Assembly (NCBI GenBank): GCA_002304445.1
Contig: NEVA01000018.1
Span: 1 to 64,000, forward strand
Origin: Opitutia bacterium Tous-C4FEB
GTDB taxonomy: Bacteria > Verrucomicrobiota > Verrucomicrobiia > Opitutales > Opitutaceae
Length of the DNA stretch: 64,000 nt
Direction: 5' to 3'
Positions 30,533-33,673 of this stretch are shown piece after piece. The translations under genes and the position numbers were made by a program. Positions within the stretch are counted from its first letter, which is position 1. Every line of letters starts with the position of its first letter. The notes under the pieces are model-generated. The model saw only the letters and a program-made list of their open reading frames with translations. It ran no database searches and was not told the origin of the DNA.

Positions 30533-31405
30533 ATGAGGTCAGACCGTTCATATTTAAGGGAAACACCGGCTGAACGAGCGTCAGCATCTCTGATGTGGCT
30601 GATCTCACTCATCGTTGCAGCTTTCCTGATCCAGTTGGTCGTAACTGCATCTTGGTTCAGAATGGGCGTTTATCTCCCACACCATTTCGGAGTTTCCATC
30701 GCAGCACTGCAGGAACTGCGTCTTTGGACCATCGCCACGCACCCGATCCTGCATCGCACCGACAATTTCCTGCATATCATTGCCGTGATCAGCGGCTTGG
30801 TTCTCCTCGGCCGCGAGATGTTGCCCGTAATGGGAGCGCGCCGGTTCATTTGGTTGTATTTTGGTGCCTCTGCGGTGGGTGCGGCCACTTGGGCGGCCGT
30901 TAACTGGAAGGCCGGAGGATCTCTGATCGGCGGCGTCGCCGGGGTTTATGGTCTCTTCGTTCTGTTCGCATGCTTGAACCCGAAGCTCGAAATTCGGTTT
31001 ATGCTCTTCTTTTTCGTGCCGGTCACCCTGAAGCCCCGGACGTTGGCTTCGGCTTTGGTTGTCTTCGATCTGTCCGGCTGTGCCTTTTATGAATTCACTT
31101 CGGCCGTTTCGCCTTTTGCCTACGCGCCCTCCGCTCACTTGGGCGGGATGCTCACCGGCCTGATTTTTTACGCCTACTTTTACTCGGAACGCTCTCTACT
31201 TTCGACCGGGCGAGCCGCCGTCGCATCCGCTTTAACCCCACCTGGCCCGAGCTTGCCCGTCGATTTTGCCCCCGCCAGCAATCAGGATCTGCGGGTCGAG
31301 GTCGATAGGATCCTCGACAAGATCAACACGTCGGGTCTGGCCTCGCTCACCGCCGCCGAAAAGCGACTGCTCGACGAGGCAAAAAATTTATCTCCCCGAA
31401 ACTAA
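30533..31405 (+). CDS. Rhomboid-fold membrane protein lacking the catalytic serine
   Basis: A 290-residue protein with about six membrane helices of the rhomboid type. The catalytic loop, normally G-x-S-G, reads G-V-A-G (residues 134-137), so the nucleophile is Ala136. The histidine of the dyad is kept (His202 in A-H-L-G-G-M-L-T-G). The soluble C-terminal tail (D-R-I-L-D-K-I, L-T-A-A-E-K-R-L-L) matches tails seen on bacterial rhomboids. By analogy with iRhoms it may bind or chaperone membrane proteins rather than cut them. ATG 30533; a TTG further upstream is less likely. The tail-specific protease gene follows 57 bases later. Confidence 0.8.
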   Translation: MRSDRSYLRETPAERASASLMWLISLIVAAFLIQLVVTASWFRMGVYLPHHFGVSIAALQELRLWTIATHPILHRTDNFLHIIAVISGLVLLGREMLPVMGARRFIWLYFGASAVGAATWAAVNWKAGGSLIGGVAGVYGLFVLFACLNPKLEIRFMLFFFVPVTLKPRTLASALVVFDLSGCAFYEFTSAVSPFAYAPSAHLGGMLTGLIFYAYFYSERSLLSTGRAAVASALTPPGPSLPVDFAPASNQDLRVEVDRILDKINTSGLASLTAAEKRLLDEAKNLSPRN

Positions 31406-31462: not shown

Positions 31463-33673
31463 ATGACCACCGCTTTCTTCAGCAAAAATCTACGTTTCGT
31501 CGCCGCAGTTATCCTCCTCGGCACATCAGCCACTTTATCGGCCGCCGATCGCAAGTTCTCCACGTCCACCTCACTTTCCACCGAGGCCCGGACTCTGATC
31601 CAATTGCTGGAGCAGGCGCACTTCAACCGCGACTCCGTCAAGAGCTCCGACTACACCGAGGTCATTTCCGCCTACATGGGTGATTTGGACGGCCAACGTC
31701 TCTTCTTCCTCGCGAGCGACAAATCGGAATTCGAGGAAAAATACGGCAAAACGGTCTACGAGAACGCCTCGTTTTTGGGCAACATCGACGCCGCCTATCA
31801 AATCTACGCCACCTACGAAAACCGCGCCACTACCCGGATCAACTGGATCTTCGACGAACTCAAGAAAGACTTCGATCTCACAACCGACGCTACTTACGGC
31901 ACCGATCGCACCAAGGCCGATTGGCCCTCAAATCTCGTCAATGCGGACGAACTTTGGCACACTCGGCTTAAGTTCGAACTTGTTGCCGAACTTCTGAACA
32001 AGAAGCCGATCGAGGAAGCCAAGAAGACGGTGCGCAAACGCTACGAGCAAATGCTCAAGAGTCTCAGCGAGACCGAGGGTCGTGACCTCGCCGAAATCTA
32101 CCTCGGTTGCATCGCCCGGCTCTATGACCCGCATTCGACCTATTTCTCCCCGGAAACCTTCGAGGAATTCGGCATCCAGATGAAACTTCAACTCGTCGGT
32201 ATCGGCGCGATGCTCGCGATGGAAGATGACAACTGCATCGTCAAAGAACTCGTCCCCGGCGGTCCGGCGGACCTCGGACGTCAGCTCAAGCCCAACGACC
32301 GCATTATCTCTGTCGGGCAAACCGGGGCCGAGCCGGTCGAAGTCATCGGCATGAAACTTCGCAAGGTCGTGGAAATGATCCGCGGCGAAAAAGGCTCCCA
32401 AGTTCATCTCTTCATCCAGCCGGCCGACGCCACCGACCCCTCGGTACGCCGCACCATCATCATCACGCGCGACGTTGTAAAACTGAATTCCCAGCGCGCC
32501 CATGCCGCGATCTTCCAAGTCCCCGGCGCCGACAACGTCCCCCGTCCGCTCGGTGTCATCACTCTGCCCACCTTTTACGGACCTGCCGCCGATGGAGATA
32601 CCGACAGCGACGGCGGCAAGACCGGCGCCACGCAGGACATCGCCCGCCTGATCGTGAAACTCAAGGAGGCCGGAATCGACGGCTTGGTTCTGGATTTGCG
32701 GCGGAACGGGGGCGGCTATCTCAACGAAGCCATCGATCTCGCCGGCCTCTTCATCAAGAGCGGCCCCGTCGTTCAGGTGAAAGACTACACGGGCAGCATT
32801 CAAATCGACGGGGACAAGTCATCCGCCATCGCCTACACCGGCCCACTCGCAGTGCTCGTCGACCGGTTCAGCGCCTCGGCCTCAGAAATCGTTGCCGGCG
32901 CACTGCAAAACTACGGCCGCGCCATCGTGATCGGCGATACCTCAACCCACGGCAAAGGCACCGTCCAAACCGTGATGGAAATGAAGAATATCTCCCGCCT
33001 CCTCGCCAATTCTCCGGCGAAAACCGGTGCCGCCAAAATCACGATTCAAAAGTTCTATTTGCCCGGCGGTGCCTCAACCCAACTCAAAGGAGTGGTCCCG
33101 GATATCGTGCTGCCATCGATCGACGACTACCTGCCCATCGGCGAGGCTTCATTGCCCCACGCCCTGATTTGGGACCAGATTCCCACCAGCTTTTTTGATG
33201 GCTCTCCCTTGGAGCCCAAAGTGCTCTCGCCACTGCGTCGGGCCAGTCTGGAGCGCCAGAACACGCTCGAAGAATTCGACTACCTGCGCCGCAACATCGA
33301 TTGGTTCAAGCTCCGGCTGGAGGCCCAGAAACTTGTCTCACTGAATCTTGACAATCGCCAGAAACAAAAGGCCGCCGATGCCGAGTTCCGCAAAACGATG
33401 AAGGCGGAACGCGATCGATTGGCGGCGAATGATTTTGGGTTCAAAGAATACCGTCTCGGGCCACCGCCCGCCCCACGCATCAAGGCACCCAAGAAGGATG
33501 ACGACGAGGGCGACGACACTGAGACGGCCGCCGAAGAAAACCAAAGCTATCCCAAGCTGGACATTCACCTCCGTGAAGCATTTCGCGTGATCGTCGACGC
33601 CATGGAGCTAGGCAAGTCCCGCGATTTCACCGACGCCGCCAAGCTGCCGCTGACAGCCAAAAGCAAAAGTTGA
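31463..33673 (+). CDS. prc: Tail-specific (C-terminal processing) protease, S41 family
   Basis: A 736-residue periplasmic protease with a signal peptide (about residues 1-29). It has a PDZ domain around 235-330 and the S41 catalytic core. The serine is Ser472 in S-A-S-A-S-E-I and the lysine Lys498 in H-G-K-G-T-V-Q, the same spacing as in E. coli Tsp/Prc. The long C-terminal region with K/E-rich helices is also Prc-like. It trims periplasmic proteins from the C-terminus. ATG start. It ends only four bases from the convergent prmC stop, with no terminator between. Confidence 0.93.
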   Translation: MTTAFFSKNLRFVAAVILLGTSATLSAADRKFSTSTSLSTEARTLIQLLEQAHFNRDSVKSSDYTEVISAYMGDLDGQRLFFLASDKSEFEEKYGKTVYENASFLGNIDAAYQIYATYENRATTRINWIFDELKKDFDLTTDATYGTDRTKADWPSNLVNADELWHTRLKFELVAELLNKKPIEEAKKTVRKRYEQMLKSLSETEGRDLAEIYLGCIARLYDPHSTYFSPETFEEFGIQMKLQLVGIGAMLAMEDDNCIVKELVPGGPADLGRQLKPNDRIISVGQTGAEPVEVIGMKLRKVVEMIRGEKGSQVHLFIQPADATDPSVRRTIIITRDVVKLNSQRAHAAIFQVPGADNVPRPLGVITLPTFYGPAADGDTDSDGGKTGATQDIARLIVKLKEAGIDGLVLDLRRNGGGYLNEAIDLAGLFIKSGPVVQVKDYTGSIQIDGDKSSAIAYTGPLAVLVDRFSASASEIVAGALQNYGRAIVIGDTSTHGKGTVQTVMEMKNISRLLANSPAKTGAAKITIQKFYLPGGASTQLKGVVPDIVLPSIDDYLPIGEASLPHALIWDQIPTSFFDGSPLEPKVLSPLRRASLERQNTLEEFDYLRRNIDWFKLRLEAQKLVSLNLDNRQKQKAADAEFRKTMKAERDRLAANDFGFKEYRLGPPPAPRIKAPKKDDDEGDDTETAAEENQSYPKLDIHLREAFRVIVDAMELGKSRDFTDAAKLPLTAKSKS

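Follow-up and report, generated by a model that had tools for sequence, protein, structure and literature searches.

A DUF6576-tailed bacterial pseudo-rhomboid encoded beside prc in Opitutaceae

Introduction

Rhomboid pseudoproteases, such as the iRhoms and Derlins, are known mainly from eukaryotes. In the iRhoms, TM1 and TM2 are separated by a large luminal iRhom homology domain. In the six-TM rhomboid topology, exemplified by GlpG, the cavity opens to the periplasm and the C-terminal tail is cytosolic. YqgP is itself proteolytically active, carries a metal-sensing domain at its N-terminus and has FtsH as its partner; we know of no link between YqgP and either DUF6576 or prc. A study of B. 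subtilis YqgP (GluP) describes a substrate adaptor for FtsH whose function is independent of catalysis: the S288A variant still hands MgtE to FtsH, and an unoccupied active site is needed; its authors argue that the adaptor function can precede catalytic loss (PMC7231995). The accessible part of a 2025 review treats the pseudoproteases through iRhoms and Derlins (PMC12615303). Our literature search, whose coverage of subscription literature was partial, found no paper on a bacterial rhomboid family of the kind described here and none on DUF6576.

The protein described here is encoded in the window, the 64,000-nucleotide stretch of Opitutia bacterium Tous-C4FEB DNA that was analysed. It has the fold, His202, the HxxxN His and the TM6-motif Gly in common with the GlpG-type rhomboid proteases (PF01694). 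Unlike them, it is without the catalytic Ser (V135 instead) and the oxyanion Asn (V85 instead), and it carries a DUF6576 tail. The direct orthologues are the DUF6576-tailed rhomboids of Verrucomicrobiota, which possess the tail, a GASA or GASG loop at the same position and, in many cases, a prc neighbour. Most of these keep Ser, Asn and His, whereas the window's clade has lost Ser and Asn. That the window protein is a genuine bacterial pseudo-rhomboid, a pseudoenzyme, is well supported by the results below.

Materials and Methods

The initial relatives were the best 80 of 403 confirmed loci and are skewed to the window's own kind. The family sample comprised 127 loci from 126 of the 229 matching genomes, taken mostly by similarity to the window. 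The order search gave 141 match rows, from which 30 and 100 loci were taken and 11 left out (weak or partial matches; G078). The alignment held 322 of the 327 loci, and 243 nonredundant rows remained once rows at least 97% identical had been dropped. The five loci left out of the alignment were L001, L003 and L004 (phmmer-negative), L002 (a duplicate of the window) and L221 (fewer than 180 residues matched). "Family-like" refers to all nonredundant rows minus the order-level loci, with the loci drawn from genome contigs assumed to belong to the family. Open frames were read from stop to stop.

Gene and domain architecture

The pseudo-rhomboid gene (30533..31405, plus strand), at the coordinates given in the first-pass annotation, encodes 290 amino acids. 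It begins at an ATG whose Met is also the start in most relatives; an in-frame TTG lies 39 bases 5' of this ATG. The Pfam Rhomboid domain (PF01694; E 7.8e-10, 39.6 bits, cut-off 22.6) covers residues 63-217 (30719..31183, plus strand), and the first TM helix, residues 12-38, lies ahead of it. A remnant of the HxxxN motif is found at 30773..30787 (plus strand), with His81 kept and Asn85 changed to Val. The GxSG loop reads G133-G134-V135-A136-G137 (30929..30943, plus strand), with V135, codon GTC at 30935-30937, in the place of the catalytic Ser. The His of the catalytic dyad, His202 (31136..31138, plus strand), is kept and is His in 239 of the 243 nonredundant relatives. We take His81, Asn85, V135 and His202 to be the equivalents of GlpG His150, Asn154, Ser201 and His254. 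The DUF6576 tail (PF20216; E 9e-09, 35.8 bits, cut-off 27.3) spans residues 255-282 (31295..31378, plus strand). A search of NCBIfam with the window rhomboid protein returned no family at E 0.01.

Downstream, prc (31463..33673, plus strand) encodes a tail-specific (C-terminal processing) protease. Its product has a signal-peptide-like N-terminus and the SASAS and GKGTVQ motifs. A 4Fe-4S ferredoxin gene (PF13370; 30146..30397, minus strand) is the divergent neighbour on the other side. The placement of the gene between ferredoxin and Prc, the rhomboid fold and the conserved-looking soluble tail, all noted in the first-pass annotation, are borne out, the fold by the PF01694 match and the predicted structure and the tail by its assignment to DUF6576.

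Register of the active site

The first-pass annotation read G134-V135-A136-G137 as GxSG and so placed the catalytic loss at Ala136, as a Ser to Ala change. The loss of the catalytic Ser stands, but the residue is Val135. All 243 nonredundant relatives have Gly at residue 133. Since this Gly is invariant, the GxSG motif begins at G133 and the catalytic Ser falls in column 135. This column holds Ser in 194 of the 243 rows, Thr in 25, Gly in 9, Met in 5, Val in 4, Leu in 2, and Trp, Phe, Ala and Ile in 1 each. At column 136, Ala occupies 186 rows and Gly 30. The usual family motif is thus G133-A-S135-A/G136; most members read GASA rather than GASG, and the rows with Gly136 are mostly plain GASG. 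Ala136 is the usual residue of active-looking members.

The register was tested again because a 61-row profile matched E. coli GlpG (E 0.004) one residue out of step, in the Ala136 register. The same profile matched H. influenzae GlpG (2nr9) at E 7.3e-06 in agreement with column 135. Three modes of MAFFT were applied to the canonical rhomboid of the window's own genome (L001, GASG) together with 14 DUF6576 rhomboids that lie outside the order; in each mode their Ser, Asn and His fell in columns 135, 85 and 202, respectively. An 18-row profile (A2), which includes most of these sequences, matched the E. coli and H. influenzae GlpGs at E ~1e-13 to 1e-12, with Ser aligned to Ser and the HxxxN Asn to Asn. 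This far stronger match overrides the weak E. coli GlpG match that favoured Ala136. Another rhomboid of the same genome, L003 (GLSG by eye), slipped three residues in the MAFFT alignment and is uninformative for the register. Ala136 as the substituted catalytic residue is ruled out by the column counts, the MAFFT alignments and the A2 match to GlpG.

With the register settled, the window protein is S135V and N85V, with His81 and His202 kept. The retention of His202, which the first-pass annotation had recognised, is confirmed by the alignments and the profile match to GlpG; the second loss, Asn85 of HxxxN to Val, had been overlooked. As aligned, the protein is without a Ser nucleophile and without an oxyanion Asn. 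It could still be a protease if another nucleophile or a rearranged active site compensated for S135V. His202 in 32 of 32 members of the window's clade (described below), His81 in 59% of them and Thr135 in 25 of the 243 relatives would suit such an enzyme, and weak activity could in principle be kept in the Thr135 relatives. However, the V, G, M, L and F found at column 135 are incapable of acting as a nucleophile, and the oxyanion Asn is gone in 32 of 32 members. Among columns with 97% or more conservation in the clade, S200 is the sole Ser, Thr or Cys, and active-looking forms conserve it to the same degree. We consider a compensated protease very improbable. PDB titles name GlpG S201T an active-site mutant, and we assume that S201T is inactive.

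Predicted structure

An AlphaFold2 model of the window protein, made from 61 sequences, has a mean pLDDT of 88.9. Its tail is a confidently predicted two-helix hairpin (helices 250-267 and 274-286) that follows a low-confidence linker. The fold search covered model residues 10-224, and the best solved matches were GlpG structures (6pj4_A: Z 18.6, rmsd 3.2, 174 aligned residues at ~15% identity, model residues 14-220), followed by iRhom1 (Z 16.6) and Derlin-1 (Z 12.3). With phmmer, the window protein alone gave a marginal GlpG match in the PDB (E 0.22).

The window protein is a rhomboid by fold, without the rhomboid-protease motif and without the domain make-up of iRhom or YqgP. The N-terminal globular cytosolic domain of YqgP is absent, as only 11 residues precede the first helix. 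The large luminal domain of iRhom is absent as well, since the first two membrane helices are separated by ~40 residues (38 to 79). What the protein has in common with iRhoms and Derlins is a rhomboid fold without catalysis, and the A2 profile reaches iRhom2 at E 1.9e-05; the iRhoms and Derlins are, in contrast, eukaryotic and have other partners. From the six-TM rhomboid topology, the DUF6576 tail is expected in the cytosol.

History of the catalytic residues

The window protein lies in a 32-row clade with support of 95/82 in a 90-row IQ-TREE and 0.77 in FastTree. In this clade, Asn85 is absent from 32 of 32 rows and Ser135 from 26 of 32, with T, G, V, M, L or F in its place, and His202 is present in all 32. 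Other branches outside the clade also hold serine-less rows. Ser135 is absent in 46 of the 127 family loci, which is not an unbiased rate because this sample was ordered by similarity to the window. The full set of Ser135, Asn85 and His81 is found in 172 of the 243 rows.

By Fitch parsimony on a 243-row FastTree built without the catalytic columns, there are at least 13 changes between Ser and non-Ser (shuffled mean 45), 11 between Asn and non-Asn, and 2 at His202. The 90-row IQ-TREE of the window's larger clade has 10 Ser/non-Ser and 7 Asn/non-Asn changes. Change counts cannot separate loss from gain, so the direction rests on rhomboids from outside the order. Among the best 30 DUF6576 loci of the phylum search, 14 of the 14 His-bearing loci from outside the order read H/N/S/H, and Ser is therefore ancestral. 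As far as the aligned sequences record, the ancestral form possessed Ser, Asn and His, and one lineage lost the oxyanion Asn and, variously, Ser. Co-loss of Ser135 with Asn85 or His81 was examined over independent pairs; with only 6 supported pairs, p cannot reach 0.05.

Active-site loss appears to have followed another route in a nine-row branch (L054, L068, L071, L074, L079, L081, L086, L092 and L100), where Ser135 is kept with Gln81 and Tyr85. Within it, L079 and L100 have Arg for His202. Separately, in the distant order members L138 and L164, His202 is replaced by Asn and position 135 holds Leu or Ile, with Asn85 kept.

The V85/V135 pair is also found in L035 (100% identical to the window protein), L036 (95%) and L037 (96%), whose sequences equal those carried by G184 and G177, two genomes of the same genus. 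Counting that of the window, three assemblies thus provide three distinct sequences, 95-96% alike, with V85/V135, which excludes sequencing error. Val at both positions also occurs in a more distant row, L284. The genome G184 holds two copies, L215 and L222, which are 100% and 95% identical to the window and lie on two contigs; it is perhaps a mixed bin.

Selection and retention

Values of dN/dS were computed with our own script (Nei-Gojobori) for pairs of at least 65% identity, leaving out pairs with dS of at least 2.5 or undefined. The median was 0.166 over 21 serine-less pairs and 0.168 over 138 serine-bearing pairs, where pairs sharing a species are non-independent. Within the window trio, the values were 0.10, 0.12 and 0.20. 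Compared with 76 full-motif family rows, the 32-row clade is most relaxed at column 135, with 81 and 85 also in the top seven. Mean entropy of the rhomboid domain is 1.44 in the clade and 1.47 in the 76 rows. The tail has the lowest mean entropy of the protein in both sets (0.83 in the clade and 0.74 in the 76 rows), and 13 of the 25 invariant columns of a 61-row alignment lie between residues 258 and 283. On these comparisons of sequence, the fold, His202 and the DUF6576 tail have remained under purifying selection. The presence of His202 in 32 of 32 clade members would be unexpected under full loss of catalytic constraint, unless this residue has a structural role.

A relative (E 1e-10 or better) is present in 229 of the 252 genomes of the family and 139 of the 177 of the order; among good genomes, the counts are 158 of 165 and 119 of 136, respectively. 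Within the genus, the gene is present in 8 of 13 genomes. No copy was found at E 1e-10 in the other 5, which include 2 of the 5 good genomes and of which several are incomplete, so the gene can be lost.

These data bear on the idea that the gene was recently inactivated and is being lost, or that it reflects an assembly error. The first-pass annotation held that orthologues with a serine would suggest as much. Such orthologues are indeed the majority (194 of 243), and the absence of the gene from 5 of 13 same-genus genomes, several of them incomplete, points the same way. However, V85/V135 is common to L035, L036 and L037, dN/dS is low in the trio and across the serine-less pairs, the serine-less clade is old, and the open frame and tail are intact. 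A recent pseudogene or sequencing error is ruled out by the shared V85/V135 together with the low dN/dS, and we give recent inactivation or assembly error hardly any credence. The alignments and trees indicate that the serine loss is old.

DUF6576 relatives and paralogues

DUF6576 is found in 120 of 145 Verrucomicrobiota genomes; among 14 control genomes, a match was obtained only in Bacteroides ihuae. The window's own genome encodes a second DUF6576-tailed rhomboid-like protein (L004/L354; G000:C1:267208-267870, minus strand), in which HxxxN and the TM6 His are absent and GESG is present. The TM6 His is absent in 8 of the 30 DUF6576 loci (L328, L329, L333, L338, L342, L343, L354 and L356). 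As five of the eight are from outside the order, a tailed family without an active site may be old in Verrucomicrobiota.

The conserved tail raises the alternative that the dead rhomboid is a mere membrane anchor or scaffold, with a DUF6576 tail that binds a cytosolic partner and a cavity that no longer binds clients. The tail being the most conserved part of serine-less and serine-bearing forms alike, the spread of DUF6576 through the phylum, and the tailed paralogue without the TM6 His and HxxxN are all consistent with a scaffold. Such a role does not account for a rhomboid domain that is as conserved in the clade as in the 76 full-motif rows. It also sits poorly with W125, G128, G129 and G137, around the pre-TM4 loop, whose conservation is higher in the clade, although common descent may account for some of the difference. 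We regard a pure scaffold as unlikely but worth keeping in view.

The two other rhomboids of the genome, L001 (GASG, HAGG) and L003 (GLSG, HLAG), are active-looking, with motifs read by eye. Their presence would allow the pseudo-rhomboid to be a dominant-negative regulator that binds the substrates of L001 and L003 and shields them from cleavage. There is precedent in the iRhoms, which inhibit rhomboid-dependent signalling (PMC3149277). No genetic link was seen between these loci, however, and regulation of this kind leaves no evident part for the DUF6576 tail or for prc. It is an improbable explanation.

Association with prc

The gap between the rhomboid gene and prc is 57 bases in the window and a median of ~98 bases over 169 loci, with prc starts estimated. 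In a search with the window's Prc at E 1e-15, which distant prc genes may escape, prc was adjacent in 43 of 47 testable serine-less rows and 126 of 189 testable serine-bearing rows. Among family-like rows, the counts were 42 of 44 testable serine-less and 72 of 78 testable serine-bearing rows, and in the 32-row clade all 30 testable members have prc directly 3' on the same strand. The co-occurrence with prc suggested for checking in the first-pass annotation therefore holds, and equally so for serine-bearing relatives. Because adjacency is alike in both groups, it says nothing specific to the dead form; prc is durably linked to the rhomboid gene whether the rhomboid is active-looking or dead. 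A distance of ~2.6-2.9 kb separates the rhomboid gene and prc in L054, L071, L076, L118, L119, L125 and L137.

Outside the family, 84 loci had at least 5 kb downstream. In 41 of these prc is adjacent (26 of them without prmC), in 8 it lies further on, and in 1 there is prmC without prc; neither prc nor prmC was found downstream in 34. The ferredoxin neighbour is a weaker link than prc, present at 39 of the 48 serine-less rows and 102 of the 191 serine-bearing rows that were testable, and probably stands outside the rhomboid/prc unit.

Discussion

The first-pass annotation proposed a non-proteolytic pseudo-rhomboid. In substance this stands, given the missing Ser and Asn, the retained fold, purifying selection of unchanged strength, the conserved tail and the persisting link to prc; it was mistaken as to the exact residue. 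Since the gene is kept under selection despite the lost cutting residue, its product probably has a job other than cutting. The dead rhomboid probably serves as an adaptor that binds clients and cooperates with a protease, be it Prc or another. That it delivers membrane proteins to a protease, as the first-pass annotation also raised, is possible by analogy with YqgP.

As a client-binding adaptor, the protein would bind its membrane-protein clients by their transmembrane or juxtamembrane segments in the rhomboid cavity, which is open on the periplasmic side, and would hold or present these clients. The cytosolic DUF6576 tail would anchor the pseudo-rhomboid to a cytosolic partner or recruit one. 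The co-directional prc gene would supply a periplasmic protease that cuts what the pseudo-rhomboid holds, or the two would share one envelope quality-control task. The receiving protease may be Prc, FtsH or neither. Because the tail is expected in the cytosol and Prc in the periplasm, the most conserved part of the protein should not touch Prc. The adaptor job would have come first, after which catalysis would have become dispensable. Taken whole, a catalytically dead rhomboid that holds or presents clients, with its tail anchored to a partner and a link to prc, is the explanation we favour, with a slight lean towards its being correct. If so, the pseudo-rhomboid would work like a Derlin or like YqgP in its adaptor mode.

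We offer a further reading tentatively and with considerable doubt. The locus may be a bacterial membrane quality-control unit whose rhomboid has repeatedly abandoned its own catalysis and turned into the client receptor of a second protease, a co-transcribed Prc, with active-looking and dead orthologues at the same gene position within one order.

What is new is a bacterial pseudo-rhomboid that is natural, under selection and shared across a clade, and whose nucleophile was lost repeatedly and in parallel. One family with a durable neighbour provides matched active-looking and dead orthologues, and its Ser column has changed state at least 13 times. These matched orthologues make the idea that the adaptor preceded the loss testable by orthologue swap. 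If the quality-control reading is true, the evolution of a pseudoprotease adaptor would be caught here in many parallel steps, which bears on the origin of rhomboid pseudoproteases.
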